A stretch of 64,000 nucleotides of DNA. Origin: Quercus robur. Lineage: Eukaryota > Streptophyta > Magnoliopsida > Fagales > Fagaceae. This document shows positions 1 to 46,891 of the stretch, in pieces. Within the stretch, counting starts at the first letter, position 1; each line of letters begins with the position of its first letter. Below the pieces are notes generated by a model, which saw only the letters and a program-made list of their open reading frames with translations, made no database searches and was not told the DNA's origin. Position numbers and translations under genes: made by a program. The DNA is taken from positions 29,035,530-29,099,529 of the forward strand of contig NC_065543.1 of assembly GCF_932294415.1 (NCBI RefSeq). Direction: 5' to 3'.

Positions 1-934
1 GGCATTCAAGGAGCCGGTGCACAAGATCGTAGATCGAATTAAGAACGAACCGTACTTTAGATGGCCGAACAAAATGGGGGAAGACCCATCTCGGAGGAAC
101 CAGAACTTGTACTGCACTTATCACAGAGATAAGGGGCATACCACCGAGCAGTGCCGGGTATTAAAAGATCATCTAGGATAGCTGATGAAAGCAGGGTATT
201 TGAAGGAGTTCGTGATGGATTTTGGGAACCAGGGTACTGGGCAAGGAGCCCAACAAAGAGGAAATCCTCTCCCACCACCACTGGGAGTGATTGAAGTCAT
301 CCATGCTGCACAGAGGAGTACAACAGTGATTAGAAAAAGGGTATTGGCTGTTGTACCCGTAGAAAATTACTCAAATTAGTAGCCCTTCAAAAAGAAAATA
401 AAATTTGGTCGAGAACCTCTTTTTTTCGACGATGACGACCTAGAAGGAACGATTCAGTCATACAATGATGCGTTGGTAGTAACGGCTCGAATAAGGGATT
501 TCTTAGTAAAGTGGGTGATGATATATCAGGGGAGCGAGGCTGACGTGATGTACCCCGACCTTTTCAAGGGGCTCGGGTTGAAAAAGGAGGACCTCTCAAG
601 GTATGATACGCCTCTGGTCGGGTTTGATGGTAGGGTGGTGATTCCCTAGGGGCAAATCTCCCTTCTCGTGAATATGGAAGGTAAGGAGGTAGTTGTAACG
701 TTTATAGTGGTAGCCTCACTTTCTCCTTATACAACGATTTTGGGAAGGCCATAGATTCATGCAATGGAGGCCGTTCCGTCCATCCTGCACGTGAAGATTA
801 AGTTTCGTACCAAGCAGGATGTTGTCGTGGTAAGAGGAAGCCTGCAAGTGGATAGACAGTGCTTAGTCGCGGCAATTGATTGGAAGAACGAGCAGACTTA
901 TCAAAAGGAAACCACCGAGGAGGTAACTTTATAG
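1..934 (+). pseudogene. gag-protease remnant of Gypsy copy A
   Basis: The frame open at position 1 encodes the C-terminal part of Gag, with a zinc knuckle C-x2-H-x4-H-x4-C (CTYHRDKGHTTEQC) at about 110-155. An in-frame TAG at 179-181 interrupts it, and the frame ends at 377-379. Protease follows at about 430-900, after frameshifts. Where the sister copy has the aspartyl-protease motif DQGSGA, this copy reads YQGSEA at about 525-540, so the catalytic Asp is lost. The region ends at a TAG (932-934) that lies at the same place as the gag-pro stop of the sister element. Confidence 0.85.
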
Positions 935-3900
935 CTATTATAGGGGCCCCGATAAGAAAGGGGGGCTAGTTGTGCCGAGGAACTAATGAGAGTTAAAATA
1001 TTACCGGATTTTGACAGATATTTCCAAATAGGAACAAGTATGAAGGACAAGGTATTTTGCCTGGAGCCCATATGAGGTGCTCGAAGTGGATCCCGAATTC
1101 ATAATTCACAGGCTTAATGTAGACTTGTCGTTTCCTCCTAAGAAGCAGAAGCCGAAGAGGTCAGCCAGGGAGCACGTCGAAGCAGTTAAATTGGAGGTTA
1201 AGAGGTTAAAAGAGGTTGGGGTGATAAAGGAAGTCTTCTTCCCCGGAGTGGCTGGCGAATACCGTGGTAGTCAGGAAAAAGAACGGCAAATGGAGGGTTT
1301 GTGTAGATTTCATGGATTTAAATCAAGCATGTCTAAAGGAACTGTTCCCTATGCCAAAAGTCGATCAGTTGGTGGATGCTACCTACGGGCACCCAAGGAT
1401 GAGTTTTTTGGACGCTTTTTAGGGCTATCATCAGATTGCCCTAGCTGTCGAGGACCAGGAAAAGACGGCATTCATCTATCCTGATGCCAATTACCACTAC
1501 ATCGTGATACCTTTCGGATTAAAGAATGTTAAGGCAACATATCAACGAATGATAATGAGGATGTTTCGAGACAAGATTGGGCATACGGTTGAAGTGTACA
1601 TTGATGACATGGTAGTGAAAAGCAAACAAGCAGTACGGCACATTGAGGATCTTCAGGGGCTATTTGAAGTACTTTGGCAACATAAGTTGCGCCTTAATGC
1701 AGAGATGTGCGCTTTTGGGGTAGAAGCTAGCAAGTTCTTAGGATATTTAATCACTTGTCGGGGAATCAAAGCCAATCCAGATCAGATTGAAGCCATGAAG
1801 CGTCTCAGGCCGCCAAGCAATCCAAAGGAGGTGCAAGTATTGACCGGAATGCTGGCCGCTCTTAACCGGTTCATTTCTAAATTTGCTGATCGCTGCCGTC
1901 CATTTTACCAACTTTTGAGGAAGTGGAGGGGATTTCAGTGGAACGAAGAGTGTGAAAAAGCTTTCCAAAACTTGAAGGAATATTTAATGCAGGCACCTAT
2001 GTTGATAGCCGGGGAGGACTTATTCATGTATCTTTCGGTGTCCGATCACGTTGTAAGTGTCGTGCTTCTGAGGGACCAAGGAGTGCAGCAACTCGTATAT
2101 TATATCAGCAAAACCTTGGTCGATGTCGAGACGAGGTATCTACCTTTGGAAAAGTTGGTGTTGGCACTAGTTTATGCACAAGAAAGCTTCCCCATTACTT
2201 TCAAGCTCATACCGTATACGTATTAATTGAATACCCTTTTGCAATCATTGTTGAAAAGATCTGACTTCACGGGACGGATAGCCAACTGGGGGACCCGGCT
2301 CGGAGCCTTTGACATAAGGTATAAGCCAAGGAGTTCGGTGAAGGGGTAGGTGTTGGTTCATTTTGTGGCAGAATTTTCTCCTAGGATCAAAGAAGAAATG
2401 GTTTTTCATGTGGAAAGCCATCCATGGAGGGTGTTTGTGGACGGTGCATCAAACGCCATGAGGGCTGGTACCAGGATTGTCATAATTACTCTAGAAGGAA
2501 TACAGCTGGAGCATTCTTTTAGATTGGGGTTTAGAGCCTCTAATAATGAGGCAGAGTACAAGGCCTTACTTTTTAGGTTGAGGGCCGTTTTAGATATGGG
2601 TGCCCGGGACGTGGAGATCTATTCAGATTCATAGCTGGTGGTTAGCCAGGTACAGGGTAGTTTTGAAGCCTGGGATTTTCGAATGAAAGAGTACTTACTG
2701 GTGGTAAAACAAGTTATGGGTAAGTTCTATACCACAAAGGTGACCCAAATGGCCCGGGAGCAAAATAGACACGCTAATTCCCTGGCTACACTAGCCTCAG
2801 CAATGATTGAGAATGTCCCTTGGTTAATCAAATTGTAGGTCATAATGGAACCGAGCATTAATACCGCGACTGATGTTGGTCTCGCTGAGGTTGGTGTTAC
2901 AGTGATTTCGACAACTAGGCCATGTTGGATAGACCCGATTATTGACTTCTTAGCCAAGGATAAGGTCCTAGATGACGAAAGAGAGACTAATAGGGTTCAC
3001 CGAATAGCCTTTTGATACTGGTTGTCGACAGATAGGAAGCTATATCAAAGGTCCTTTGGAGGGCCATATCTTTTATGCTTACACCTCGAGAAAATAAATG
3101 AACTCTTAGCCGAGCTACATGATGGGGTATGCGGCAGTCATGTGAGGGGACGCTCATTAGCTCACCGGGCAATGACTCAGGGATTTTGGTGGGACGCTAC
3201 TGAATATGTACTTGTGAGCGATGCCAAAAGCATGCCCCTTTGATCCACCAGCCAGTGGGACATCTGAATCCTATCAACAGCCCTTGGCCCTTTGCACAAT
3301 AGGGGCTGGATATTCTCGGCCCATTTCCCTGGGCGATGGGCAATCGAAGGTTTGTTTTAGTGGCTGTTGATTACTTTACCAAGTGGGTGAAGGCAGAAGA
3401 GTTAGCCAATATTCGGGACATGGATGTTAAGAAGTTCGTATGGAAGAATATAGTCACTAAATTTGGGTTGTTGGACTCTTTTATATCTGACAACGGGTTG
3501 TAGTTCGATAGCAGGGCCTTCTGCGAGTTTTGCAGTGATCTCAGCATCAGGAACAGATACTCTACCCCAGCGTATCCTCAAAGCAATGGACAGGCTGAAG
3601 CCGTTAACAAGACAATTGTGAATGGATTGAAGGAAAGGCTGTACGGTGTGAAGGGTAAGTGGGCCAAGGAATTGCCAATGTATTATGGGCATATCAAACA
3701 ACACCCAGGAGATCTACGAGAGAAACTCCGTTTTCTTTAACATATGGGGCAGAAGCCGTGATACCGGCCGAAGTAAACCTATGCAGTGCATGGGTCGAAG
3801 GATTTAATTCCCCCCAAAATGAAGGAATGATGGTGGAACGTTTGGATCTGCTGGAGGAGTACCGAGAGGCGGTGACCATATGGCTTGCCTAGTATTAACA

Positions 3901-21440: not shown

Positions 21441-24400
21441 TTAAATAGGTTGTTTCTTTTTACTTTTTATGGGGGTACTGGCATCTAATAATTGTCTGAC
21501 AACGTCTCTCATTGTAGGTCTCTTGCTTGGCTCCTTTTCAGTGCATCTCAAAGCCACCACAAACACATCAATAACTTGTTCCATGATATCTGAATGCAAA
21601 AATTCCTCCATAAGGCTTGAATCAACAATCTTTTCAATTTCTCCTGTATTGCTCCAGACGGACCTGACCCAACTCACAATATCCATTTCCTCCATGAATG
21701 ATGGATCCAATGCCTTCTTTCGGGTTAACAGCTCGAGCAAAACAACCCCGTAACTATACACATCAGACTCCTTACCCTTTGTTGTTGTGTATGCATTTTC
21801 TGTAAAAGCCATGGTACACAAATCATTCAATTTAAAAATCTAAAAATAGAAATAGGCTAAACAACAATAAATGCAGAAGAATTACCTGGTGCAATATAAC
21901 CAAATGTACCCACAACTGAGATGGATGGGGTTGAAGCAGAGGACTGATCCAGAAGCTTGGCGATACCAAAATCAGCAATATGAGGCTCCATCTCTGAGTC
22001 TAAAAGTATGTTATTTGGCTTGATATCACGGTGTACTATAGGAGGATCACAGTCAAAATGGAGATATGTCAATCCATGTGCTGTTCCAACTGCTATTTTG
22101 TAGCGGACACCCCACTCTAGTGTTGGTGGTGGATTCACTTCATGTAAAACATCATGAAGGCTCCCATTTTGCATGTACTTATACAAGATTAAACCATAGT
22201 CCTTTCGTAACCAAAAGTCTTCCAGTCTCACCAAATTCCGGTGCCTAATCTTCCCAACAGTTTGAATTTCTCTAGCCATACTTAGGTTTCCTCCTTTATT
22301 CCCAGAAAATGCAAGCTTCTTCACAGCAAAAACTTTGTCTGGGCTCAATGAGGCCTTGTAAACAGCTCCATGGGCTCCTCGCCCAATTAAATACCGGTCA
22401 TCTAGATTTGCTGTGGCCTCCATTAGTTTTTTAAGCAGGGAAGATGATCCCTCTTGAGCAGAGGTGTCAGCTTCCTGCTTTGGTCTTCTGCTGAAAAGAA
22501 ACACAAGAACCAATCCGAGAAGCATAAAAACAAGAGCTAGTGAGGATCCAAGGGATATCATTGCGACTTCTAATCTACTAAGACCCTTTTTATTGCTTGA
22601 TTGAAGGTCACAAGGCTTGAAATTGCTGTTTCCGGTGCAGGTTAATCCACCAGATGGAAGACAACTGACACAAAGGCTGGGGTTGCCTAAGAATGATGAT
22701 GGAGATGAGTTCAGAAACTTCATTAGTGTTTGTGGAACAGGACCTGTGAAGTGATTGTATGAAATATTGACCTCAACTAATGACTGCATTTCCTCTAGAG
22801 CTATCAAAGTTCCTGTCAAATTGTTATGAGACACATCCAGCTGCAGAAGCCTGTTCAATTTTCCAAGCTCTAAAGGAACTTCACCTGTCAACACATTACT
22901 GCTGAGATTCAATGCATAGAATAGATCCTGCAGTGCCCCAATAAACGAAGGAATCTCTCCTCCAAAAAAATTTCCACCAAGTTGTAGCTCTGAGAGCTTT
23001 TTAAATTCTGACAAGAACGATGGGACACCCCCAATAAAACGATTCTCTCTCAAAATCAATGCGGATAAACCTGTCCAGCTCCTCAAACTAGATGGAATTG
23101 AGCCATTCAATAGATTGAAACCCACATCAAATCTCTCTAATTTGACACAATTTGATAGCTGAGATGGCAAAGGACCTTCCAATTTGTTTTCAGCCAAACT
23201 CAATGTCTGCAGATTCACGAGGTTTCCTAGCTCTGGGGGTATAAACCCTGTAAACATATTCTTGGACAAAATAATGGAAGTGAGGTTGGTGCAATTTCCC
23301 AGGCTTGATGGAATTGCTCCACCAATATTATTTTCACTGATGTCCATGAATAAAAGCTTTGTATTTTTGTCAAATTCTGGAAGAACCCCTGTGAAGTTGT
23401 TTTTTTTGAGGATTAATCTTCGCAGAGTTGAACAGCTTCCTACATCAGAAGGTATGCTACCTTGAAGTTGATTTTGACCCATATTCAGCACACTTAATTG
23501 CTTTCCAAAGCAAAGATTTGGAGGAATTTTACCAGTGAACTTATTATTCGTAAAGTCCAACTGTATTAAGCTGCTGTTAATCCCCAAACTTTCAGGTATA
23601 ACTCCAGAGAATTGGTTGTCATACAATGAAATGTTTTTAAGTTGTTTGAGCTCAGTCATCTCCAGAGGTAGTTCCCCGGAAAGGCTGTTATTATACACAT
23701 GAAGATACTGGAGACTTGGAATCTTCCAAATGCTAATGGGAATTTCACCCATTAAACGGTTGTTAAACAATTCAATGTCCTGCAATTCAGTCAGCATCCC
23801 TAATTCACTGGGAATTTCCCCCTCAAGTTGGTTTGTATACAATAGTAGGCCTTCCAAGGACTTGCACTTGCCAAGTTCAGGCGGTATTTTTCCAGACAAA
23901 TGGTTTTCAGGAAGGTGAAGTAGTAAAAGCTTATATAGTAGACCAAAGGAAGATGGGATATTGCCCATTAAGTTGCTACTCACAGCAACGAAGTATGCTA
24001 AGTCACTACAATTGCCCAAGCCTGGTGGAATACCTCCACTAAAACCATTGAACGATAAATCCAAGGAGCATAAACTCTTGCAATTGCCCAAACCCAAAGG
24101 AATTCTACCCTCAAGACTATTTTGGCTGACTGATAAATAAGCAAGGTTCTCAAGATTGTTTAGACTCTCAGGCAAAATACCCACCAGTTGGTTCTGATTC
24201 AAATAAAGTTCCTCCAGTTTACTACAATTTCCAATAGATGAAGGAATCATCCCTGATAACTGATTACCAAATAACCGTAGACTCAAAACCGCACTCATGT
24301 TTCCAACATTTGCAGGAATTGAGCCATTGAAATTGTTATTGTTTAGATACACATATTCCAAGTGTGGAATCCGAAACACGGATTCGGGTATTTCACCAAT

Positions 24401-24862
24401 CAGCATATTTTCATAGAGGCTCAATGACAGTAAACTCTGCAAGTTTTCAAATCTATCAGGTATTTCTCCACTAAAGTTGTTTACAGACAGGTCCAATTGC
24501 TCAAGAACACTACAGTTGCCTAACTCTTTAGGTATGACACCAAAGAAATTGTTATAACTCAAAACAAGGATTTGCAATTGACTAAGGTGCCCAATTTCAG
24601 GTCCTAACCGACCTGAAATTGCCTGACTAGAGAGGTTAAGGGACATCACATTGTGAGCATTGTCACACTCCACTCCTGCCCATGAGCAAGGAGAGGAATC
24701 AGAAGCATCCCAGCTTGAGGTTATGGAAGGAGGCACAGATGTCCAGTGCCTCAGGAGTGCCAACAAAGTTATCCCATCAGAGTTGAGACCAGAGACAGTA
24801 TAACCATATATGGATGCAGTGAAGCATAAAAACAGCAATAAATGGTTCAAAACAAGCTGCAT
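21441..24862 (-). CDS. PEPR-like: LRR receptor-like kinase, PEPR1/PEPR2-like (LRR subfamily XI)
   Basis: Two coding exons. Exon 1 is 24862-21886 and exon 2 is 21799-21441. An 86-bp GT-AG intron (21885-21800) splits the Glu codon of the APE motif. The product is 1111 residues. It has a signal peptide (residues 1 to about 22), an LRR N-cap with C-S-W-A-G-V-E-C, and about 26 tandem LRRs of the G-x-I-P type (about 75-720). A paired-Cys juxtamembrane region (LCVSCLPSGGLTC) and a membrane helix (about 766-791) follow. The kinase starts at GRGAHG (about 827), with Lys in FAVKK (about 848), HRD (about 944, an RD kinase) and DFG (about 964). All catalytic motifs are present. Layout and sequence are closest, from memory, to plant PEPR receptors. 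These sit in the plasma membrane, bind Pep danger peptides and signal with BAK1-type co-receptors. The ligand is inferred, not shown. Confidence 0.88.
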
Positions 24863-26029: not shown

Positions 26030-29000
26030 AAACCAGACATCAAGTTTGGGCTTCTATTGAATAAGAAAGCAACATCAATGAACATCGAACAAAACCAGGG
26101 GATAAACAGGTCATCCAACCAAACCCGAACCCCCACCAAATCCTTAGCCTTTTTGGCTAACATATTAGCTAGCACATTACAGACTCTTTTAAGTTTTAAC
26201 ATGACTAAACTCACACAACTGAAAGTCATTAGCAAGGACTAAGATGTCATTAATGACATTCCCATATGAGGAGAGACAGCTAGGCCCTTGTGCGAGGGCG
26301 TTGATCACCCCAGCGAATCGCCTTCGATAACCACTTTCTGTAGACCCAGCTCTTTAGCAAACTGAACTGCTTTTCGGCACGCAATTGCCTCCATTTCGTT
26401 CACTGTTTGGGAAAGGGATATGGGCATGGACAGGGCTCTAAGCACAGCTCCATTCCAGTCTCTAGCAATAACACCAATGCCTGCCATATTCAGTGAGTTG
26501 AACACCGTTGCGTCGAAGTTCAACTTGACATGCTCGGGCTCTAGAGGTCGCCACTGCTGCACCAAGGGATGAGGGGAGGGGATTGGTTCAAGCTCCTGGG
26601 TAGCGAGGTACTCCTGCAGCAAGTCTCCCGCCACGGAACAAAGATGTCCGAAAGGATGCACAAGTCGGCCAAAATGTTGAGCGTTTCTTCGATTCCATAA
26701 TAACCAAGCTGTGATAGAGAAAATTTTAGCGTTGAACTCATCTTGTACCTGCAAAAATCTAGAAAGCAAGTCAGTGAAATCAGATGGGGGGGAGGTGACC
26801 ACTTGATGGAACCATGTAAGTGAGTTCCAAATGCAGGCAATCTCCCCACAGGACCATATGGCATGCAGCGTGTCTTCCTCATGATTTTTACACAGTGCAC
26901 ACACAGCTGAATCGGTAATTTGGCGGCACCAAAGATTGGACATAGTGGGTATTGCGTTGTGGCAAGCTCTCCATATGAAGAGCTGAATTTTCATAGGAAC
27001 TTGGAGCTGCCAAATACTTCTCCAGAACTTCCTGGTTGGGGCTGGGTTGAAGCTGCCTGCACGCTCATTCAAAGCACACGCAGCCAGCATTTTGTAAGCA
27101 CTGCTTGTGGAGAACTGACCTGATGGGGTAAGAGACCAAGTGATGCGGTCAGGGGGGGCTCTTTCACTTAAAGGGATGCTTAGGATGGCAGCCGCTTCGT
27201 GTGGTAGAAAGTTTGCCTGGACAATTTCAGTCTTCCATTCTCCAATTTCATGGTTTATTAGACTACTAACTGTAGCATCTGGGGGCAGGTATGGTAGAGC
27301 AAAAATGGGGGTTCTACTAGGTTGATTAGGTAGCCATTGATCTTGTTTAATTCTCACCGAATTCCCATTCCAATACAACACACCATACCCTTTCAAATCA
27401 CATCACGAGCATTATACTTTTCCAAGCATAGGAGCCACAGGTAGAGTCCCTTGCCTCAAGGATTGAGCTATCCGGAAAAAAAAAAAAAAAAAAAAAAAAT
27501 CTTGCTTTTAACTCCCAATGACAGAGGGAGTCTGGATTATTAATCATACGCCACACTTGTTTGGCAAGTAATAAGGTGTTTGGTTTGTGTTTTTAAATTA
27601 CCATTTTCAGTTTTTAAACAACATTTCACGCATTTCAACGCACTTTTTCACCCACACGTATTTCTACAAATGTTTTCAAATAATAATTTTCAGTTTTTAA
27701 ACACATATACCAAATGGGCCCTAAAGCATCGTTGAATTTTTCAATTTCCTTAAACCCCAGTCCTCCCACCTCCTTGGCCTCACAAAGTTTGTCCCATTTA
27801 ACCCAATGCACCTTTCTATTGTCTCTACTATATTCCCACCAGAATTTTCGTATAAGAATTTCCAATTCCTTAATCAACCCTTTAGGAAGTTTAAAGCAAC
27901 TCATGGTATAAGTTGAAATGGCTTGGATTACTGACTTGATTAGCACTTGTCTATCCGCTTGCGAAAATAACTTCTCTTTCTAACCTTGAAGCTTCCTCCA
28001 CACTCTCTTTTGATGTAAATAAAGGATTTTTTTTTTAGCTCGACCCACTAAGGCTAGCAACTCCATATATTTCTCATACTAGCATATGGCTGGAACCCCT
28101 AATAGCTGCTGGATACTTGTCTGAATCTGGGGAGAGGTATTTGAGCTAAAAAAATAAATTTGTCTTTTCCCTATTTATTTTTGCCCCAAACCACACTCAT
28201 AGATAGCTAAAATATCAAGAATCTTTTGGCACTCCCCTTTAGTGGCTTGACAAAACAAAACACTGTCATCTGCAAAAAATAAGTGGAAAATTCTGGGCCC
28301 ATTACGACATATAGCTATCCCTTTTATATCTCCACTCGCCTCAACTTTTTGAATCAAGCATTGCAAACCCATGGCACATAACAAAAATAAGTAAGGAGAT
28401 AATGGGTCATCCTGGTGAAGCCCTCTACCTGGATGAATATTTCCTACAACTTGTCCATTAAGCAAAACAAAATAGGATACAAATTGCACACAAGACATAA
28501 TAATTTTAATCAACCTCTCCTCAAGACCCAATTGATGCATCACTTTCTCCAAGAAAACCCATTCCACCTGGTCATAGGTTTTACTCATATCCAACTTAAG
28601 AGCCATTAGGCCCACCTTCCCTTGTGTTTTTCTTTTAAGGTAATGAAGTGTTTCAAAGGCCACTAACACATTATCAGTGATGAGCCTACCCGACAGGAAG
28701 GCACTTTGAGAATCAGGGATAGTGAGAGCTAAGAACTTCTTCAAATGATTAACCACAACCTTAGCAATTAATTTGTAAATCACATTGCAAAGGCTAATAG
28801 GCCTAAAATCTGAAACTTTCTTCAGATTTTTTATCTTAGGAATTTGGCATATGAAGGTGGTATTTATGGCTTCAGGAATAATACCAGTATTTAAAGCATT
28901 AAGCACAACAGTTACATCCTCACCCACAATATTCCAGTAAGTTTTATAAAAGATAGGAGACATACCATTAGGGCCAGGTGTGGTGAGAGGAGCCATTTGC

Positions 29001-30337
29001 TTGAGGGCAGTGAGGACTTCCTCAGCTTGAAAGTCACGGCCTAACCTCAAGGGAGAAGCATCAAATGTGGCAGGTTGCATTCCTTCTAAAATCTCATCAA
29101 ACCCTGAAGGATTTGAGCTAGTAAACATGCTTTCAAAGTAGTCTTGTACCACCCTACCCATTTGGCCTTCATCTTTCACCTAATTACCAGTCTCATCTTC
29201 CAATCCCAATATGAGATTGCACTGGTTTCTCTAATTTGCTTTGCAATGGAAATATCTAGTGTTTCTATCTCCCTCCTTCAACCACATATTATGAGATCTT
29301 TGCTTCCACATCAGCTCCTCTCTAGTCTTGAGTTTTTGAATTTCATCCCTCAATACATAGATTTGGCTTGGGTTGGTTCTATAGCAATCCAATTCTTCTG
29401 CATTTTGCAATTCCCTGAGTTTCTTGGCAAGGGTATTATGGACATGTCCAAAAGTGGTGTGGTTCCAAAGCTTAAGATTTTCTTGACAAGCGGAGATTTT
29501 GCTAGAAAAATCCCAAACTGAAGGAAAAGCCGGACTTGTGCCCCAAGAATCTTTTATGATCCCCTCACAAGAATTATACTTTATCCACATAGCCTCAAAC
29601 CCGAATGGATGCCCTTTTTTATAGAAACATTTGAACTCAGAATCTGTGCATAACAATATGGGCTTATGGTCTAAATGGAAGGCTTCCAAATGATGAATCT
29701 GGGATGAAGGGAATTTTAAAATCCATTCCACCAATGCCACTCCCCTATCAAGACGAATCCATACATCTTGGTCCCCTGGTCTTCTGTTGCACCAAGTAAA
29801 AGGATACCTGTTAAAACCCAAGTCCCTCAACCTGCAGTAATCCAAAGCCTCCCTAAACCCTTGCATTTGCCTTTCCAGACAGTCCAGCCAACCCTATTTC
29901 TTATCAGCTAGTAAAATTTCATTAAAATCACCTATACACAACCAAGGCAAATTAAACCGATTATGGAGAATTCTAAGCAAGGACCAGGAGTTTTCCCGGC
30001 TGGCGGTATTAAGGTCACCATAGAAACCCATGAACTTGCAGGCGTCATTAACTCCATGGTCAATAATAGCATCAATATGACAATCAGAAAAAGACTACAC
30101 ATCCACATTAGAATTAGTTTTCCAAAATAAAGCAAGACCGCCACCTGTATTATGACGTGGGACAACAAATAAATTAAAATATTGAATTTTCCTACCAATA
30201 CGATCCAAGACATATTTTTCAACCTTTGTTTCCATTAAAAAAACCAACATAGGATCTTTGTTGTTAATAAGTGGAACGAGCTCATCTTCTGTCTGTGGGT
30301 TCCCAAGCCCACGACAGTTCCAGTTAAGGCAACTCAT
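26030..30337 (-). pseudogene. LINE-C ORF2 (endonuclease, reverse transcriptase, RNase H), broken
   Basis: ATG 30337 gives CLNWNCRGLG, METK and, after a stop near 30095, GDFNE (about 29930), WIRLDRG and LDHKPI, i.e. the AP-endonuclease. RT lies in the open piece 29179-28175 (APLTTPGPNGMSP; TYDQVEWVFLEKV; catalytic FADD at about 28270). The thumb region continues at 27946, is split by the MITE at 27721-27575, then runs through a 25-nt T tract (minus strand; 27500-27476) into the open piece 27396-26305 (zf-RVT and RNase H: KLNFDATVF, EAIACRKA, IEGDS). The RNase H end, with CNVLANMLAKKAKD, lies at 26190-26120 after a frameshift. Confidence 0.88.
27575..27721. mobile_element. Tourist-like MITE nested in LINE-C, 147 bp
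   Basis: The left end GGTGTTTGGTTTGTGTTTTT and the inverted right end GGGCCCATTTGGTATATGTG are imperfect TIRs. Flanking TAA occurs at 27572-27574 and 27722-27724. The LINE reading frame resumes with a local gain of Leu codons (FNDAL then LAKQVWRM), which confirms both the insertion and the 3-bp duplication. The 3-bp TWA target points to PIF/Harbinger. Confidence 0.8.
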
Positions 30338-36764: not shown

Positions 36765-36769
36765 CCCTT
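36765..36769 (+). repeat. TSD of Gypsy copy B, left
   Basis: CCCTT directly before the LTR, identical to 46887-46891 directly behind the other LTR. Confidence 0.9.
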
Positions 36770-37365
36770 TGTAAGAACCAAGTACGAGACTTCTGGGCCT
36801 TAGATTACTTGGGCTCACAATTTATTTGTAGTGAGTTTGAGGATTTCCTACTTTGGGTCGTTCTCAGCAGAGAGACTCAAAGCAACACTCAGTTATTCTT
36901 TCTCACTTGATGGTTTTCTCTCAATTTTTCTGAACCCCTTCTTCTCCCCAATTTCTTCTATTTATAGCCAAGGTTAGTGGGGAGATTATGATCACAGCCA
37001 CCGTTAGTGCTACTAAGGGTCCAATATTATCTGGTTAAAGTGGATGTTTAGGTGAGAGGGCGGTGCAGCATTTATGACCTTGGAACTTGGTTCCGGCTTG
37101 ATGGATTATGTTCGGCAACTCAGCTTCCCGTGCATATCATGAGTTTCCCGTGCATGTCATGACTTTCCCGGACACGGCCAATTCACTTGCCCGGGAAGGT
37201 TAAACTGATCGTCGGTTGGAACTCTGACCCCAAAGCTTGTTTTCACGTTAAGGTAGTTTCAAGAAGGGCGTAGGGTAACTGGACCTTTCCGCTGGGCCTG
37301 CATCCAAAACCAGTATGGGCCTGGGCCCAAGACCTGTATGGGCTTTGGGGTCTCGGTGCCGTACA
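36770..37365 (-). repeat. 3' LTR of Gypsy copy B (left in window)
   Basis: 596 bp, TG...CA in window orientation, nearly identical to 46290-46886. It contains an internal near-repeat CTTCCCGTGCAT / TTTCCCGTGCAT and a CTATTTATAG-type box near 36959, which on the minus strand can serve as the element TATA (CTATAAATAG). Confidence 0.95.
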
Positions 37366-37379
37366 TTAGCCCCCCCTTG
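37366..37379 (-). promoter_or_regulatory. Polypurine tract of Gypsy copy B
   Basis: On the minus strand TCAAGGGGGGGCTAA directly precedes the 3' LTR start (TGTACGG). This is the plus-strand primer position and fixes the orientation of the element. Confidence 0.85.
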
Positions 37380-37656
37380 ATTCATACTCGGTCGTCGAGA
37401 AGAATCAAGGAGTTGTCTGGGACTTTTAACCTCGGGAATCTTATAGCCTGGGACTCGTGACTACGGCTTCTCATTAATATTTATCTCAAAAGACGCGCCG
37501 TTTCGCGGCGCCAGATGCAGTCGCCATTATTGCCTGTTGGTTCGCGAACCGAAGCGACGCGCGAATCACTTACGTTTGGCATTCGATGGGCCGCTCGTAA
37601 ATCGTGCTCATTTATTGCTTGATTAAACGTTTCTTCTCCCGCCTTTCCTTTTGGCT

Positions 37657-37666
37657 CTATAAATAG
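37657..37666 (+). promoter_or_regulatory. TATA box of the antisense gene, copy B
   Basis: CTATAAATAG lies about 290 bp inside the left LTR and about 260 bp before the first codon of the antisense gene. It is the same decamer as in copy A (7609-7618). It is followed by a CT-rich leader that contains a tandem 62-bp duplication. Confidence 0.7.
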
Positions 37667-37708
37667 TCCCTCTCTGAACATCATTTCATTTTTCCTTCGC
37701 CTCAGATT

Positions 37709-37832
37709 TCTTGCGCTTACTCTCTGCCGACCAAATCACTGTGCGCTTACTCGCTTGCCCAGTGTTCCTTTCTTGCGCTTACTCTCTGCCGACCAAATCA
37801 CTGTGCGCTTACTCGCTTGCCCAGTGTTCCTT
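37709..37832 (+). repeat. 62-bp tandem duplication in the leader of the antisense gene
   Basis: TCTTGCGCTTACTCTCTGCC starts at 37709 and again at 37771, and the two 62-bp units appear identical. Each unit itself contains two TGCGCTTACTC motifs. It is not evident in copy A. Confidence 0.85.
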
Positions 37833-37926
37833 TCCTCCTTAGAACCCAAAGTAAGTTTTTCTTCCCCTTCCTGTTCCTTCAGCTTTATTTCTTCAAGTTC
37901 CCCTTTTGTAGTTTTAGTCACTGTAG

Positions 37927-40219
37927 ATAGGTTACTCTTACCTTCTAGAATCCCCGGCTGCTTTAGCCACCTTTAGGAGTAAGTTTAATGTTCCCGATGA
38001 CGTGGATGTGGCCTACTGCCATGAGAGTGATATTGAACTCCACCGAGGGCGGGGTACAGCCTTTTTCCCTTTGATGTCAATTTTAGAAGGAGGGGTTAGG
38101 TTCCCCGTGGATCCCCTCTTGATAAACGCACTTACATACTATGGGCTGTGTCCCGACCAGCTTCCCCCCAACTTTTACCGGGTAGTTAGCTGTGTCAGTA
38201 AGTTGAACCATACCTTTAACTTACAGTTAAACCATCATGATATTAACCACATGTATAGCCTCTGTGGGAACAAGTCCACCAACTATTACTTAAAGACAAG
38301 AGATAATCGGGTACGGCTGATATCCTGCCTACTTGACTCGAACAGGAACTCCGCCGGGGAGTTTGTAAGGGTGCGCGGCAATTGGTTTGCCGGGGACGTC
38401 CCCTGCCCCCTTTCACGGCGTGAAGTGGGTTCGTACTATTCCCTTGATTTAATTGCTTTCCTCTGCTTCTCTTTTTCTTCTTATTATTAGATACTAATGT
38501 GATACTTGCTCTTTTGCAGACGGCAAGGTGTTCGTTCCGGACCTCAGACCCGTCCACGTCAAGGATCTGAACTTCGTCCTCCGTTCCGAGATATACGTTC
38601 ATTGGGACGGACAACTCCGGGCCTCGCACTTGATCCTCGAGATAGAGCCAGTTTACTCTACTTGGCAGACCTTCAAGCAGGCATTACTAGTTGACAGCCC
38701 CTTGCTATCATATATAGACGTCCGGTACGTAAACTTTTTGCCTCCGAAACTTACAATCGGGGAGGCAAAGGAATTTGGTCGGCGTTTCACTGCCTCGGAC
38801 GAACTAGCTCCCTTGTGAGACGAGTCCGCAGAACGGGTATCTCAGCGCCTTAGAGAGATAGCCCACGAAGCCATACAGCAAGGTGACCAAGCCCAAGAGC
38901 AGCCCAATCCCGAGAATCCACCCGCCAAGCCTCAACAGCAAGTGGTAGAAGCGGCTACCTTGCTAGCTGAAGCTATCCAACCCGGTGCAAGGATGGTGGC
39001 TAGAAGAGTCATGACCATCGACCGGTTTGTGCCCGGTGCCTGGCAGCCCAATCAGCCCCCGCCTATGTAGGGTCGGGGTCAAGTGTCTCAGCCTCCACCC
39101 CCTTCGCAGTCCGGACGGGCCCGTAAGAAGCAGAAGGTGACCGATCAACCTTCCACGGGTCCGGGGGATGCCACAGCCCAGACTCCTCCTCGACCAACAG
39201 GAGGAATTGTTATCCGTGAGCCAACGGCTGAAGCTGGCACGGGGGTTGCGTCCTCCTCTCAGGTGGCTCCAGCATGGAAGCCAAAGTTTCTACTGGACGG
39301 CAAACCACTGCCCTCAACCGCCTGTGTTCGGATGTGGGAGAAGGGAGAGGGCGGCCGTATTGCCCAAACTTTGGCTGAAGGTCTCCTTCTTCCCGAGGAT
39401 GTGCATGCCTTTGAGGAGGGATCCGAGGAGTCTATGGGGCGTCGGTTAGAGTGGCACGCCATTGCGGTAATTACTTAGCTTTTTGTTATCTTTCCATGCA
39501 CCTTTTTCTGCCCCTTTATTAATTTTTGGGCTTGCCAGGCTGCCCAACTGGCTCACATAGTTGCCAGCCGGACACGGGATTTGGCCGAGGAAGTAGAGCG
39601 CGAGAAGGGGGCGCGGGAGTCGGTAGCCAAAACGGCGAAGGAAAAGCTTAAAGCTGCCGAGTCTGCCGAGAAGAAGGCTGCTGCTGCTGAAAAGAACCGG
39701 GCATTGGCCGAGAAAAGATGTGCCGAGATCCTGGCGAAGCAGAACGAGACGGAGGTTAAGTTAGCCGAAGCCATCAGCCTTAACACCGCCTACGCCGATG
39801 ACATAGCCGATCTCAGGGCAGCTTTGGAGGCCGCGGAGCAGAAGTGGTACAACGAGGGCTTCGCTGATGCCGAAAATTCAGCAGAGCCGGTAGTGGCTCG
39901 GGCTCGGCATATGGGTTTTGAGGCCGGGTGGTTCGCCGCTCTCCAAGCAATGGGAGCTCCTGAAGATTCGCATCTGAGGGACCCCGGCCAGATTCCGTTT
40001 CCGAGCCCTGTCCCTCCCGTCCAGGAAGCCCCGGCCGCTGTTGACGAGGAGGAAACGGCCAGTATGAGGGAGCTCGTTGAACAAATTGATGCTCATGCTA
40101 AGCCCGAGGAAGTGGAAGTCACCAGCATCCCGACTGTGCAGGAGCTTCTTGGTGAAGTCCCGCCTTTCCCCCTGACCGTCCAAGCAGAAGTGACTGATCC
40201 TACCCGACCTTCCAACTGA
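37927..40219 (+). pseudogene. Spliced antisense gene of Gypsy copy B (Transposase_28-type, coiled coil)
   Basis: It lies on the strand opposite gag-pol, between pol and the 3' LTR. Exon 1 is 37927-38428, exon 2 is 38520-39466 and exon 3 is 39539-40219. The introns are 38429-38519 (91 bp, GT-AG, phase 1) and 39467-39538 (72 bp, GT-AG, phase 0). Exon 1 has the block FPLMSILEGGVRFPVDPLL and MYSLCG. Exon 2 has LLVDSPLLSYIDVRYVNFLP and LLLPEDVHAFEEG. Exon 3 has a long Ala/Glu/Lys coiled coil, then KWYNEGFADAEN and an acidic Pro-rich end. Relative to copy A the start ATG is ATA (37927-37929), and exon 2 has in-frame TGA (38816-38818) and TAG (39068-39070). It is dead here. The domain resembles Pfam Transposase_28; its function is unknown. 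Confidence 0.8.
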
Positions 40220-40479
40220 TTTCCTTTACAGCTTTTTTGTATTTTTACTTTGTCTTTATTAATTTTCTAATTTCAAAGGTTTGTTTGCCTAAGGCACCGG
40301 GATGTGGTGCATGAATAGTAATTTTATCTATTTGACGAGTAACATGCTTTCCGTTTGACTTCTATTTTAATCAGTTGCATGAATTTTTGTCAATTGTTTT
40401 GTTTCACGGGAATTATGCCAGTGCTTTGGGTCATTTAGTTTACCCGGGAGTCGTGTTTTAGTCCTTTGTGTTTTTAGTT

Positions 40480-40765
40480 ATAAGGTCTAAACCCGTTTGT
40501 TGGTTCTAATCGAGCCGAGTACCGGGTTTTTGTCCTTAAAGATTTTTAGCTGTAAGGTTTCCACCTGCTCGGCGAATATGATCGAGCCGAGGGTCAGGTT
40601 TCTGTCCTTAGATTTATTTGTAAGGTTTCCACCTGCTCGGCGAATGTGATCGAGCCGAGGGTCAGGTTTCTGTCCTTAGAGATTCATTTGTAAGGTTTCC
40701 ACCTGCTCGGCGAATATGATCGAGCCGAGGGTCAGGTTTCTGTCCTTAGAGATTCATTTGTAATT
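40480..40765 (+). repeat. Tandem array behind pol, 4 units of about 70 bp (copy B)
   Basis: Units start at about 40480, 40552, 40621 and 40691 with TAAGGT(T/C)T. The last three are almost identical. Each holds CTCGGCGAATATGATCGAGC, whose CTCGG and CCGAG ends could pair. It is homologous to the array at 4312-4655 in copy A. Confidence 0.9.
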
Positions 40766-40853
40766 CTCTTGGTACATAGTTGCGAAAACGGCATAAATAA
40801 GTTCGTCATAATCTTGATTTTAACGAAATACAAGTTGTGGCTTACACGGGTAA

Positions 40854-43800
40854 TTATGCGTAGAATTTCTTTAAGTTGTTGGCGTTCCATGGCCAGGGAA
40901 GCGGCCTCTCGTCGAGGTCTTCCAAGTAGTAGGCCCCTGCCCCCGCAATGGCTGTAACTCTGTATGGTCCCTCCCAAGTCTGAGCAAGCTTCCCTGCAAC
41001 TATATCTTGCATGTTTCCCACCACCTTCCTTAATACTAGCTCCCCGGCGCTGAATTCCCTCCCCTTTACATTTCGGTTGTATCTTTAAGCCAATTTCTGT
41101 TGATACTCGACGAGCCGTATGGACGCGGCCTCTCTGCATTCTTCTATCCAATCCAAACGCTCCATCATCAGGTCGGTGTTCTGGACGGGGTCAAATCCGG
41201 CGACCCTTGCGCTGCATAAGCTCACCTCGGTCGGTATCACTGCTTCCGCTCCGTACGTCAGAGAAAATGGGGTTTCCCCTGTGGATCTCCTGGGGGTCGT
41301 GCGGTAAGCCCATAATACACTGGGTAGTTCATCTGCCCATCTTCCTTTCGCCCCGTCCAACCTCCTCTTGAGCCCGTTCAGAATAGTCTTGTTTACTACC
41401 TCCGCTTGACCGTTGCTTTGTGGGTAAGCCGGGGTTGAATATTTGTTCCTGATGCCGAGTTCGCTGTAGAAGGTCCGAAAGGCTTTGCTGTCGAACTGTA
41501 GCCCGTTGTCCGTTACTAGCGCATCTGGCACCCCAAACCTGGTAATAATGTTTTTCCACACGAACTTTTTCACGTCAGTATCCCGGATATTGACCAGGGC
41601 CTCGGCTTCCGCCCACTTCGTGAAGTAATCTATTGCCACCAATACGAAACGACGGTTCCCCGTTGTTCGGGGGAACGGTCCGAGAATGTCAAGCCCCCAC
41701 TGTGCGAACGGCCAAGGGCTGCTGACAGGATTCAGACGCCCTGTAGGCTGATGGATCAGAGGGGCGTGCTTTTGACACTGTTCGCAGCTCCGAACATATT
41801 CAGCGTCATCCTTCTGCATCTGAGGCCACCAAAACCCTTGGGTCATCGCTCTGTGTGCCAAAGATCGTCCCCCAATGTGTCCGCCGCATACCCCCTCATG
41901 TAGCTCAGTCAGAAGCTCCTTGACTTTCTCGGGATGCAAGCACAAAAGGTAAGGGCCAACAAAGGACCTTCGGTTCAATTTGCGGTCCGAGGACAGCCAG
42001 TACCGAGGAGTAACCCGACGAATCTTCTTGGCCTCTTCTTCATCCTCTGGAACTACATCCTCGGCAAGAAAATCTATGATCGGCTTCATCCAACACGGAT
42101 TAGTCACTGCTGCCTGCGCAACCTCTACTCTGGTTTGGCCGGGGACACTCTTCACACTGATACTTGGCTCCCTTATAAGTTCTATTGTGACTAACCGAGG
42201 CGTGTCCTCCGTAGCCGATGAGGCTAGCGTGGCAAGGGAATCGGCGTGCTTATTTTGCGACCGAGCTACCTGGGATACTTTTACTGTTCCGAATTGGCCG
42301 ATGATCTGCTTGGCCATACTCAGATAAGCCTTCATTCGAGAGTCCCGAGCCTCGAAGTCTCCTGTGATCTGATAAACAACCAGCCTAGAGTCCGAGTAAA
42401 CTTCTACATCTTTTGCACCCAAATGCAATACGGCCCTCAAGCCAGCCAGTAGGGTCTCATACTCGGCTTCATTGTTTGAGGCTTTGAATCCCAACCTGAA
42501 GGAGTGTTCCAATCGTATGCCATCAGGGGTAATTACGACAATGCCAGCTCCGGCCCCCATAGCATTTGATGCGCCGTCCACAAATACCCTCCACGGGCGA
42601 ATTTCTGCGCTACAAATTACTTTGCCATCGTTCTTAGGTGTGAATTCTGCGATGAAATCTGCGAGGACTTGTCCCTTCACCGAGCTCCTAGGTCGGTATC
42701 TTGTGTCAAACGATCCCAACCGAGTCCCCCATTTGGCAATTCGGCTCGTCAAATCAGATCTCTTCAACAGCGACTGTAAAGGATACTCGGTGAGAACGAA
42801 CACCGTGTGAGCCTGGAAGTAATGTGGCAACTTCCTCGTGGCATGCACCAGGGCCAAAACTAACTTCTCCAGAGGCAAGTACCTTGTCTCAGCATCTACC
42901 AAGGTTTTGCTTACGTAATACACTGGCATTTGTACTCCTTGGTCCCTTAGCAATACAGCACTTACGGCATGCTCGGTAACTGAGAGGTACATAAACAAAT
43001 CCTCTCCGGGCTCTAGGGCTGTCAACCTCGGCGCCTTTGCCAAGTATTCCTTCAGCTCTCGGAAAGCCTCGTCACATCCTTCGTCCCAACGAAACCCCTG
43101 CCACTTCTTCAGAAGTTGATAGAATGGTCGGTAGCAATCGGCAAACTTGGAGATGAATCGGTTCAGGGCGGCTAACATCCCAGTGAGCACTTGCACCTTC
43201 TTAGGATTGCTCGGTGGTTTGAGGCGATTGACGGCCTCTATTTGGTCGGGGTTAGCCTCTATTCCCAGAGTGGAGATCAGATAACCTAGGGACTTGCCAG
43301 CCCCCACTCCGAAAGTGCACTTTTCAGCATTCAGGCGCAGTTTGTGCCGTCGTAGTATCTCGAATACTCCCCGAAGGTCTTCAGTATGCTGCAACTCTTT
43401 TCTACTTTTTACCACCATGTCGTCGATATAAACTTCAACTGTGCATCCAATTTTTTCTCGGAACATCCTTGTCATCATACGCTGGTAGGTGGCCTTGGCA
43501 TTCTTTAATCCAAACGGCATGACCTCGTAGTGATAGTTTGCGTTCGAGGATATAAATGCTGTCTTTTCTCGGTCCTCGGGCGCCAAGGCAATCTGGTGGT
43601 AGCCTTGGAAGGCGTCAAGGAAGCTCATCCTCGGGTGCCCGTACGTGGCATCTACTAGCTGATCAATCTTGGGCATCGGGAATGGGTCCTTGGGACACGC
43701 TCTGTTCAAATCTGTGAAGTCCACACAAACTCTCCATTTACCGTTCTTCTTCTTCACTACGACAGTGTTTGCTAGCCATCTCGGGAAGAATATTTCTTTT

Positions 43801-44132
43801 ATGGCCCCGGCTTCCTTTAGCCGCTGGACCTCCAGGTTTACTGCATCGACGTGTTCCTTTGATGCTCTTCTCGGTTTCTGCTTCTTCGGGGGAAATGATG
43901 GGTCCACGTTGAGTTTATGGACAATGAACTCGGGGTCTACGCCGGGCACGTCGTACGGGTTCCACGCGAAAACATCTACGTTCTGCAAAAGGAACAACAA
44001 CATCTCCACCCTTTCCCGGTCATTCATGCTTGTGCCTATCTGAAAATACTTGTCAGTATCTGGAAGAATCCTAACCTTCAATACCTCTTCGGCCACATCC
44101 GCCCCCGCTTCCCCTCGGGGCCTCTGTAATTG
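40854..44132 (-). pseudogene. pol of Gypsy copy B: RT, RNase H, aRNH, integrase; one stop near the end
   Basis: One long frame, with Met at 44096, runs 1003 codons to TAA 41087-41085 and continues in frame to TAA 40856-40854. RT is at about residues 95-280, with catalytic YIDD at about 223. A degenerate Ty3 RNase H is at about 350-470. An archaeal-like RNase H starts at WRVFVDGAS (about 510), with EAEYE and YSDS. Integrase has H/C zinc-binding residues (HEGVCGGH...CEQC) and core residues in ILGPF, VTDNG and QSNGQAE. The TAA at 41085 replaces a CAA-type codon and removes the last 76 residues or so of the integrase tail (LEDLDERPLP). The frame joins gag-pro in the same phase through the TAG at 44135-44133. 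Confidence 0.9.
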
Positions 44133-44135
44133 CTA
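44127..44135 (-). promoter_or_regulatory. Candidate stop-codon readthrough signal between gag-pro and pol
   Basis: On the minus strand the junction reads TCA TAG CAA TTA CAG. Both reading frames are in phase across the TAG. TAG CAA TTA fits the known type I leaky-stop consensus UAG CAR YYA, first described for the tobacco mosaic virus replicase. Copy A keeps a TAG at the same place (932-934), followed by CTA TTA. The inference is that ribosomes read through at low rate to make Gag-Pro-Pol. Confidence 0.65.
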
Positions 44136-46226
44136 TGAAGTCTCTTTATCGGCCTGCTCAGCTTGTCCGGGTTGTTCACTTTTCCATGTGGCAGCGGTGA
44201 TAAGGCACTGCCTCGCCACTTGTTGGTTCCTCCTCACCTCGGCAATTCCGTGCTCGGTAGGAAATTTTACTTTCACGTGGAGGGTGGACGGGACAGCCTC
44301 CATGGCGTGAATCCATGGCCTCCCCAGGATTGCGGTGTACGGCGAGAATGATCGGACTACTATGAAGGTAACTATAACCCCCTTGCCTTCCATATCCACC
44401 GGGAGAGAGATTTGTCCCTCGGGAATTACGACTCTCCCGTCAAATGAGACCAGCGGCGTGTCATACTTCGCCAAATCTTGGGTCCTTAATCCGAGCCCTT
44501 CGAAGAGGTCTGGGTACATAACGTTAGCCCCGCTCCCCTGATCAATCATTACCCTCTTCACCAGGAACCCGCCTATCCGGGCCGTGACCACCAAAGCGTC
44601 GTCATGTGGTTGGACCGTTCCTTCCAAATCGTCTTCCCCGAACGATATGTTAAGCCGTCCAACTTTCTTCTTCTTCTCGGCTGATCCTCCTCCCGTGCAA
44701 GCCACTGTCAATACCCTTTTTGCTGCTGCTGTTCCTCTTGGTGCAGCGTGGATGACTTCGATTACCCCCAGTGGAGGCGGGAGGGGGTTCCTTTTCTGTT
44801 GAACGCCCCGTCCGGCTTCTTGGTGAGTGGCGTCTGCAATGAACTCTTTTAGGTACCCTGCCTTTACCAGCTGCCCGAGGTGATCCTTTAGTACCCGACA
44901 CTGCTCGGTGGTGTGCCCCTTGTCTCTGTGGTAGGTGCAGTACAGGTTTTGGTTCCTCCGAGATGGGTCGCCCCCCATTTTGTTTGGCCATCTGAAAAAT
45001 GACTCGTTCTTGATTCGCTCCAAGATTTTGTGCACGGGCTCCTTAAATGCCACATTTACCCCTTCGATATGTACCTCTGGTTCTTGCATTCTGAAGTCTT
45101 TCTTTGGTTTTGTGGGCAAAACGCCTTGCCGAGATCTCCCAATTAATGGGGCTTTCCCCTTGCTCTGCAGCCGGTCGTCCTCCAGGCGTTTGTACTCCTC
45201 TATGCGCCTCATCAGTTGCCTCATATCCTCGGGAGGTCTTTTCGTCAACGACTCCCGTAACTCAGAGTCTTCGGAGAGCCCCATCCTGAAGGTGCTCGCC
45301 GCAATTTTCTCATTCCCTCCACCAATCTCGTTGTAGAGTTCCCAGTATCATATGGCATAACTCCGAAGGGTTTCCCCGACCCTCATCTTCATGGAAAGTA
45401 GCGCGTCAACCGGCTGTTGCACTCGGCTACATGTAACAAATCTACTGCCGAATTCTTGAATCAGCTCGGCAAAGCTGTGTATGGAGCCCTTCCGTAACCC
45501 ATTAAACCACCTCAGGGCCGTTGAGCCGAGGCTAGAGGGGAATACCTTACACATCAGTGCATCGTTGTGCGCATGTAAAGACATCATGTGGATGTAAGGA
45601 CTGACATGCTCCACGGGGTCTGTCCTCCCCTCATAGGAATTGAATGGTGGTCGCGTGAATCTGCTCGGCATGGGTGCCCGTTCAATCTCATCGGAGAATG
45701 GAGACCGGGTTGCCATCCGTAAGACTCTGCTCATGGCGTCCATTGCGGCGTTGTGGTGCCGCCGCTCCTCTGGCGACTCCGATCCTCGGTCATGATATCC
45801 ATGCGATCGGGAACGATCCCGTCAATGACGTGTCTCCCGGGAGTGTCGATGTGACTCTTGAGAGCGTGATCGGTCTCGGTGTTGTTGCATAACAGATCGG
45901 CTGGAACCCTCCTCGCCCCGGTTTCTCCTTGGTTGGGGGTTGCGGTTCCTTTCGTGGCGCCGACCCCTCGCTTCCAGCTCCAAGTCCATTACCAATCTAC
46001 GTAACCGCTCCAGCTCTCGGTCTCTATCATCATATTGCCGATGTGCTGAGACGCCTGAAATCGTCCGGTGTGTCTGGGCCGATCCTTCTCCCAAGCTGGA
46101 CCTTTCCTCTCCTCTTGGATGCTCCCTATCCTCCCGCCGTTTCTGCCTTCTCTCCCTCCACGTCGATCCCCGAGAAGATCCTATGGAATTGCTCGGAGCA
46201 TGCCCTCCTGAACGCTCCTCAGACAT
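44133..46226 (-). pseudogene. gag-protease of Gypsy copy B with two in-frame stops
   Basis: The best start is ATG 46226-46224 (MSEERSGGH), shortly behind the primer-binding region. One frame of 698 codons runs to TAG 44135-44133, broken by TGA at 45824-45822 and 45350-45348. Order: an Arg/Glu-rich N-terminal region with a coiled coil (about 46020-45930), a Retrotrans_gag domain at about 45640-45420 (ALRWFNGLRKGSIHSF), a zinc knuckle CTYHRDKGHTTEQC near 44940-44900, and an aspartyl protease with DQGSGA near 44560-44540. Both TGA codons stand where Arg CGA is expected, i.e. C-to-T changes at CpG. Protease ends before the TAG. Confidence 0.88.
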
Positions 46227-46267
46227 CTCCCTTGTTTGAGTCTCACTCGAACCACAGCTTCGTAGGA

Positions 46268-46289
46268 GAGCCCCACGGTGGGCGCCAAT
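46268..46289 (-). promoter_or_regulatory. Primer-binding region of Gypsy copy B
   Basis: Directly inside the right LTR the minus strand reads TTGGCGCCCACCGTGGGG. The position and the TGGCGCC core fit a tRNA primer-binding site. I cannot assign the tRNA without a search. Confidence 0.6.
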
Positions 46290-46886
46290 TGTAAGAACCA
46301 AGTACGAGACTTCTGGGCCTTAGATTACTTGGGCTCACAATTTATTTGTAGTGGGTTTGAGGATTTCCTACTTTGGGTCGTTCTCGGCAGAGAGACTCAA
46401 AGCAACACTCAGTTTATTCTTTCTCGCTTGATGGTTTTCTCTCAATTTTTCTGAACCCCTTCTTCTCCCCAATTTCTTCTATTTATAGCCAAGGTTAGTG
46501 GGGAGATTATGATTACAGCCACCGTTAGTGCTACTAAGGGTCCAATATTATCTGGTTAAAGTGGATGTTTAGGTGAGAGGGCGGTGCAGCATTTATGACC
46601 TTGGAACTTGGTTCCGGCTTGATGGATTATGTTCGGCAACTCAGCTTCCCGTGCATATCATGAGTTTCCCGTGCATGTCATGACTTTCCCGGACACGGCC
46701 AATTCACTTGCCCGGGAAGGTTAAACTGATCGTCGGTTGGAACTCTGACCCCAAAGCTTGTTTTCACATTAAGGTAGTTTCAAGAAGGGCGTAGGGTAAC
46801 TGGACCTTTCCGCTGGCCCTGCATCCAAAACCGGTATGGGCCTGGGCCCAAGACCTGTATGGGCTTTGGGGTCTCGGTGCCGTACA
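46290..46886 (-). repeat. 5' LTR of Gypsy copy B (right in window)
   Basis: 597 bp, TG...CA. Compared with 36770-37365 I count seven base changes (six transitions, one transversion) and one extra T near 46412, about 1.2% divergence. It is followed by the TSD CCCTT at 46887-46891. Confidence 0.95.
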
Positions 46887-46891
46887 CCCTT
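46887..46891 (+). repeat. TSD of Gypsy copy B, right
   Basis: CCCTT, matching 36765-36769. Confidence 0.9.

Follow-up and report, generated by a model that had tools for sequence, protein, structure and literature searches.

The gag-pro/pol boundary of a Ty3/Gypsy retrotransposon (element B, minus strand) in a 64,000-nucleotide stretch of the Quercus robur genome (NC_065543.1, positions 29,035,530 to 29,099,529; the whole stretch is referred to here as the window) is marked by a single in-frame TAG followed by CAA TTA. This TAG very probably serves as a programmed leaky stop of type I, the tobamovirus type, which is the best explanation for the pattern of conservation described below. The leaky stops of plant viruses follow the consensus UAG CAR YYA (PMC2754532, PMC2194720). 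The exact motif TAG CAR YYA was present at 126 of 140 junctions read in the Q. robur genome (785.7 Mb), and TAG itself at 138 of them; the two others carried TAA and TTG.

On its minus strand, copy B has TAG CAA TTA at 44127-44135, one reading frame runs before and after it, and the next in-frame stop is the TAA at 41087. This agrees with an earlier note on the same DNA, which described gag-pro and RT-RNaseH-integrase (RT, reverse transcriptase) as sharing a frame split by one TAG, with the bases behind it fitting CAR YYA. The note also placed a TAG with CTA TTA after it at the same point of a decayed copy in the window (copy A), and both reading and alignment bear this out: copy A has TTA TAG CTA TTA, codon before the stop included, and its alignment to B at the junction covers 760 bases at ~70% identity. 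Apart from the junction, copy B has in-frame stops at TGA 45824, TGA 45350 and TAA 41087, which match the three further stops mentioned in the note. The distinction drawn in the note between a shared junction stop and other, randomly acquired ones holds for TGA 45350, which is private to B (1/40 close copies).

The survey comprised B, A and copies chosen from DNA and protein searches. The queries were gag-pro relatives and a pol relative (proteins, stop not included) and copy A (DNA), in addition to the DNA search with B. Places were chosen from the listings before any junction was read. We read all 39 other places of the B search, 40 of 176 gag-pro matches (the two with exceptionally long open frames among them), 20 of 65 and 8 of 80 matches in further gag-pro searches, 20 of 39 other places of the copy A search, and 12 of 43 pol matches. 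Each search scored part of its candidates; the numbers of scored matches and candidates were, in the order just given, 40/635, 89/11424, 65/12293, 80/11664, 40/274 and 43/20545. L073 was dropped before the count of 140, having no RT downstream, and L092, whose frame shifts later, was kept in the 140 and left out of the entropy, frame and ATG analyses (119 junctions). The groups F1 to F7 used below are counting groups defined by query and similarity, not clades.

The exact motif was found in all seven groups: 40/40 in F1 (the B group), 21/24 in F2, 14/15 in F3, 19/20 in F4, 13/21 in F5 (the group of decayed copy A), 11/12 in F6 and 8/8 in F7. The earlier note had proposed scoring TAG and the next six bases across the family and had named a sense codon or a frame shift in most members as a result that would count against a leaky stop; most of the members read instead carried TAG and CAR YYA, in support of its interpretation. 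Within F1 (DNA search, at least 90% identity), TCA TAG CAA TTA was kept in all 40 places, B included, and the 13-base run around TAG was the longest invariant run in the 1800 columns of the close-copy alignment. Outside the B group (100 junctions), the most frequent triplet accounted for 0.98 of the copies at the stop, 0.89 at codon +1, 0.69 (TTA) at +2 and 0.84 at -1. Across the remaining 15 codons between -8 and +10, the corresponding shares were 0.18-0.45, values that are lowered by indels in the linker because triplets were counted without gaps. Over 80 copies, the 12 bases between -3 and +8 had a mean column entropy of 0.30 bits, compared with 1.23 bits for the flanks (P 2.4e-7, from a statistic that ignores relatedness).

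The pattern of substitution at these 100 junctions suggests that the constraint acts on the nucleotides of the motif and not on the amino acids. Codon +1 was CAA in 89 and CAG in one, codon -1 was TTA in 84, GCA in 10 and TCA in 3, and codon +2 was TTA in 69, TCA in 26, CCA in 2 and TCG, CAG and TAA in one each. TTA, TCA and CCA together thus made up 0.97 of the +2 codons, so that the residue swaps between Leu, Ser and Pro while the Y-Y-A nucleotide pattern persists. Third positions had meanwhile drifted: at the start of RT, B and F4 were 46-50% identical in residues and 33-37% identical at third positions, and third-position identity with B was 46-48% for F2, 26-46% for F6 and F7 (short stretches) and 46-77% for the closer F3. 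Because nine bases were kept where neutral sites have diverged, the distant copies point to selection on the motif. Chance was rejected as the origin of the motif by the 140-junction survey. The linker before the stop varies in length between groups, and in L088 it is shortened yet TAG CAA TTA is kept. L088 (G000:C3:49097849-49099342) has a reported open frame of 2183 amino acids with the junction TAG present; this frame must reach upstream of gag. L087 (G000:C38:29117696-29118316), with a reported open frame of 1713 amino acids, is the sole copy of the 140 with TTG for TAG, and as such offers a natural comparison with copies that carry the stop.

The reading frames on both sides of the stop were open. 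Frame 0 after the stop contained 31 stops in 4165 codons across the 119 copies, compared with 402 and 374 in the other two frames. Reported open frames reaching the junction were 687-754 amino acids long on the gag-pro side (65/65 scored matches) and 1104-1108 on the pol side (43/43). As a control, we used a more distant Retand-like family of the same genome, in which a single gag-to-pol frame of 1745-1812 amino acids was found in 27/27 scored matches (24401 candidates), with no internal stop in 23 and one in 4. The Q. robur genome therefore holds both designs, split and fused, and the remark in the earlier note that one fused open reading frame (ORF) is usual in plant Gypsy elements agrees with these relatives. 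Since the sister Retand-like family has one fused ORF, the stop marks a subclade.

Protein relatives of gag-pro came from Quercus suber, Q. lobata, Q. robur and Castanea sativa. Among the 120 gag-pro matches listed, 87 reach the junction end, and 60 of these 87 end between -4 and +10 residues of the stop; 44 of the 60 are Leu-final and 11 Ser-final (background 15.6% for both). Candidates in this search were at most ~707 amino acids long, so fused proteins could not appear. Candidates in the pol search reached ~1776 amino acids, and 120 of 3058 matches were listed. Of these, 27 were from metagenome-type sources only: none of the 17 with at least 55% identity extends more than 9 residues upstream past the junction (several start well inside pol or are fragments), while among the 10 of lower identity there are 4 fusions that span it. 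In an unrooted RT tree, 9 split and 7 fused rows fell on opposite sides of one branch (100/99); 18 rows of this tree are unlabelled, and it includes no named reference element.

It is somewhat probable that the Gag-Pro/Pol switch of a whole Retand-like subclade, present in oaks, in chestnut and perhaps in beech, is a leaky UAG of the tobamovirus type, where the relatives of this subclade keep a single ORF. Beech as a host is only a guess because the Fagus models cross the junction, probably by predicted introns. In P0010, a gag-pol protein of Castanea mollissima, the first residues are MTPEALSQLKK; QL stands where the oak junction has CAA TTA, and no stop precedes it. A literature search on Castanea elements returned none, and searches of IMG/VR gave 2 pattern matches with the pol protein and 43 with the pol alignment, with no relative confirmed among them.

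With regard to mechanism, most ribosomes would stop at the UAG and release Gag-Pro, and a minority would insert an amino acid there and continue in the same frame to make Gag-Pro-Pol. The outcome would be structural protein in excess of enzyme. The case for a leaky stop is built on its place and frame, the conservation of nine bases, the open frames on both sides and the single-ORF relatives; from these we infer readthrough in planta, its rate and its role in the Gag:Pol ratio. As in type I signals, the UAG stands directly before CAR YYA and the same frame stays open onward. Neither a start codon nor a strong splice donor nor a 3' stem was common to all groups tested. A consensus RNA structure computed after the stop from 11 copies had no pairs (the alignment was gappy), and copy B alone folded only slightly better than its shuffles (z -1.68). 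Frameshifting was rejected because gag-pro and pol are in the same frame.

The main rival to readthrough is splicing of the kind known in Ogre, in which an intron holding the TAG or ending at it would be removed from some transcripts to join gag-pro to pol, with unspliced RNA giving Gag-Pro. We regard this as improbable, although the sister lineage Ogre does splice here (PMC6317226) and the B group offers candidate sites: a GT at -102 (40/40) could be joined in frame to an AG ending at +153 (36/40; 255 nucleotides) or to the TAG itself as acceptor (105 nucleotides). The Quercus suber model P0005 likewise passes straight from the end of the protease to QLQ, as if TAG were the acceptor. The 255-nucleotide intron, however, would delete codons conserved among related pol proteins, and as an acceptor the TAG scores poorly in all seven groups (-3.7 to 0.1, maximum 12.2). 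The 100 bases upstream of the TAG contain only 12-20% T in F1-F5. Good donor scores between -115 and -60 were found in 0/15 F4, 1/12 F6, 0/5 F7, 4/21 F5 and 9/24 F2 copies. As good donors are missing from F4 and F7 and nearly so from F6, and the TAG acceptor is poor, splicing probably cannot serve all groups; nor does a splice acceptor need CAR YYA behind it. It is still less likely that ribosomes terminate at the TAG and a fraction restart at a downstream AUG to make pol separately. An in-frame ATG does occur at codon 36 in 39/40 F1 copies (the first is at codon 13 in one) and at codon 9 in 24/24 F2 copies, but its place differs between groups and 18/19 F4 copies have none in the stretch read after the stop, and this variability speaks against reinitiation. 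The frame is also open directly after the TAG, related pol proteins show conservation ahead of codon 36, and CAR YYA would be left unexplained. The least probable account, to which we give hardly any weight, is a dead stop that spread from one source element with helpers acting in trans. It could draw on the further stops of B and on L087, with its TTG and long open frame. A dead stop would nonetheless have lost TAG CAR YYA as third positions fell to 26-48% identity with both frames kept open, and the distant groups contradict it.

Several observations weigh against a leaky stop as we read it. At -102, a donor-like GT is conserved in F1, F3 (14/14) and F5 (20/21), in frame with the TAG as a would-be acceptor. 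The exact motif is missing from 14 of the 140 junctions, 8 of which are in F5. In the 40 close copies, the motif was not significantly quieter than base-matched sites (P 0.10-0.23), and A and T are the less variable bases in this set; these copies are therefore evidence of a shared TAG but not of selection on the motif. Six of the 87 gag-pro relatives extend at least 23 residues past the stop point, and in some database gene models exons seem to be joined across this point. Such bridging models are probably annotation artefacts. The models P0005, P0013, P0034 and P0035 (Quercus suber and Fagus sylvatica) have apparent introns over the stop and often resume at QL or QS.

The features of the element are listed in Table 1. 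The ends of element B were set by TG..CA and the flanking duplication, and the BLAST ends (36769 and 46289) lie one base further than those adopted for the element and its long terminal repeat (LTR), respectively. The LTR pair differs by 7 mismatches and 1 gap over 598 columns, and element B is a recent insertion despite its other in-frame stops. There was no Pfam match within 44136-45284 itself, and the label gag-pro for this ORF refers to homology with proteins that carry a Retrotrans_gag domain; a sequence search of solved structures with the gag-pro piece found none. The pol end in B is probably cut short because the relative P0001 aligns on to 40860.

Table 1 Features of element B and of the equivalent junction in copy A (window coordinates)
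Feature	Position	Strand	Basis or remark
Element B	36770..46886	-	Target-site duplication AAGGG at 36765-36769 and 46887-46891; ends from TG..CA and duplication
5' LTR	46290..46886	-	98.7% identity to 3' LTR
3' LTR	36770..37365	-	LTR comparison
gag piece (Pfam Retrotrans_gag)	45351..45821	-	E 1.5e-6
gag-pro ORF, open end, 404 codons from private TGA 45350 to TAG	44136..45347	-	ORF reading
TAG, gag-pro/pol boundary	44133..44135	-	Sequence and frame; in frame with both ORFs
CAA TTA, CAR YYA follow-on of the stop	44127..44132	-	Consensus (PMC2754532, PMC2194720)
pol ORF: RT, RNase H, second RNase H, integrase; ends at TAA 41087	41088..44132	-	ORF and Pfam
Antisense ORF, 212 codons, between pol and 3' LTR	39581..40219	+	No Pfam match
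TAG CTA TTA, equivalent junction in decayed copy A	932..940	+	Sequence, frame, alignment to B

By its domain order and its long region between pol and the 3' LTR, element B can be described as a Retand-like Ty3/Gypsy element (Tat). A second RNase H (RVT_3 at 507-624) lies between RNase H (337-463) and H2C2/rve (722-892), which is the domain order of Ogre and Retand (PMC6317226). The region from pol to the 3' LTR measures ~3.7 kb (41087 to 37365) and holds antisense ORFs of 131 and 212 codons. In Retand, this region spans 2,933-6,566 bp, and an antisense ORF cut of 600 bp was applied (PMC11963269); B falls within that range and its 212-codon ORF reaches the cut. An antisense TRP28 domain is reported in 97% of Retand clusters (PMC11963269). 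TRP28 was not found in B, where 39083-39478 and 39581-40219 gave no Pfam family at 1e-3 and shorter or broken ORFs were not scanned. With no TRP28 found and no named Retand or Ogre references in the RT tree, the element is called Retand-like only. A ~70-base repeat in four copies directly follows pol (40468-40750), and a perfect 62-base repeat pair lies at 37707-37830; tandem arrays are common in this region of Retand elements (PMC11963269). Elsewhere in the window, the minus strand carries a receptor-kinase-like gene (21857-24862), an ORF of 1001 codons that encodes leucine-rich repeats and a protein kinase domain, and reverse transcriptase and zf-RVT/RNase H pieces (26305-29179), probably of a broken element of the long interspersed nuclear element (LINE) type.

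The mechanism that keeps Gag in excess of Pol is known for few plant LTR elements; frameshifting and splicing are given as the main routes in a review from 2025 (PMC12786077). To these, readthrough at a conserved signal in the junction would add a third, directly testable one. The natural variants (TTA, TCA or CCA after CAA or CAG; TTA, GCA or TCA before the stop) offer a ready set for finding which bases matter. If the leaky-stop reading is true, these junctions would form a natural and very large collection of type I readthrough signals in plant genomes, and the nine-base signal would have outlasted most of the silent-site likeness around it. Annotators should also be aware that several database gene models seem to span the stop with introns. 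Precedents are the readthrough between gag and pol of murine leukaemia virus (MLV) and the in-frame stop that separates ORFs in SIRE1 (PMC2194720). The literature searched contained no report of a UAG CAR YYA signal between gag and pol in plant Gypsy elements; its coverage did not extend to a 2003 survey of recoding in LTR elements.

Among known systems, plant Gypsy elements are mostly single-ORF, or spliced in Ogre (PMC6317226). Ogre (Tat) resembles the oak element in being split between protease and RT with the same domain order; its ORFs are ~274 bp apart on average, and an intron has been shown in pea and Medicago (PMC6317226). The oak frames, unlike those of Ogre, abut at one codon and leave no spacer of a few hundred bases. 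Retand clusters with two ORFs share the lineage by domain order and the long pol-3' LTR region; they are a minority, since 83% of eudicot Retand clusters have a single ORF, and the available text describes neither stop context nor readthrough for them (PMC11963269). SIRE1 (copia), another plant LTR element, likewise has an in-frame stop, for which readthrough has been proposed (PMC2194720). The oak element differs from SIRE1 in being Gypsy and in having its stop at gag-pro/pol. In the stop-suppression study of SIRE1, the stop is said to lie at the pol/env boundary of a copia element.

MLV, like the oak element, has an in-frame UAG between gag and pol of a retroelement, but its readthrough depends on a purine-rich spacer and a pseudoknot, and its pro follows the stop (PMC2194720), whereas in oak pro lies before the stop and no shared structure was found. 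A close likeness in sequence is to the type I stops of tobamoviruses and benyviruses such as tobacco mosaic virus (TMV) and beet necrotic yellow vein virus (BNYVV), which also combine UAG with CAR YYA in one frame (PMC2754532); no shared 3' structure was found in the oak element. In contrast to the viral stop, which lies in a replicase or coat protein gene, the oak stop lies between retrotransposon gag-pro and pol, and the codon before it differs from theirs in being mostly TTA, GCA or TCA. In a plant reporter, UAG followed by CAA UYA gave readthrough of 32% for TMV and 11% for BNYVV, with Tyr inserted in the case of TMV (PMC2754532).
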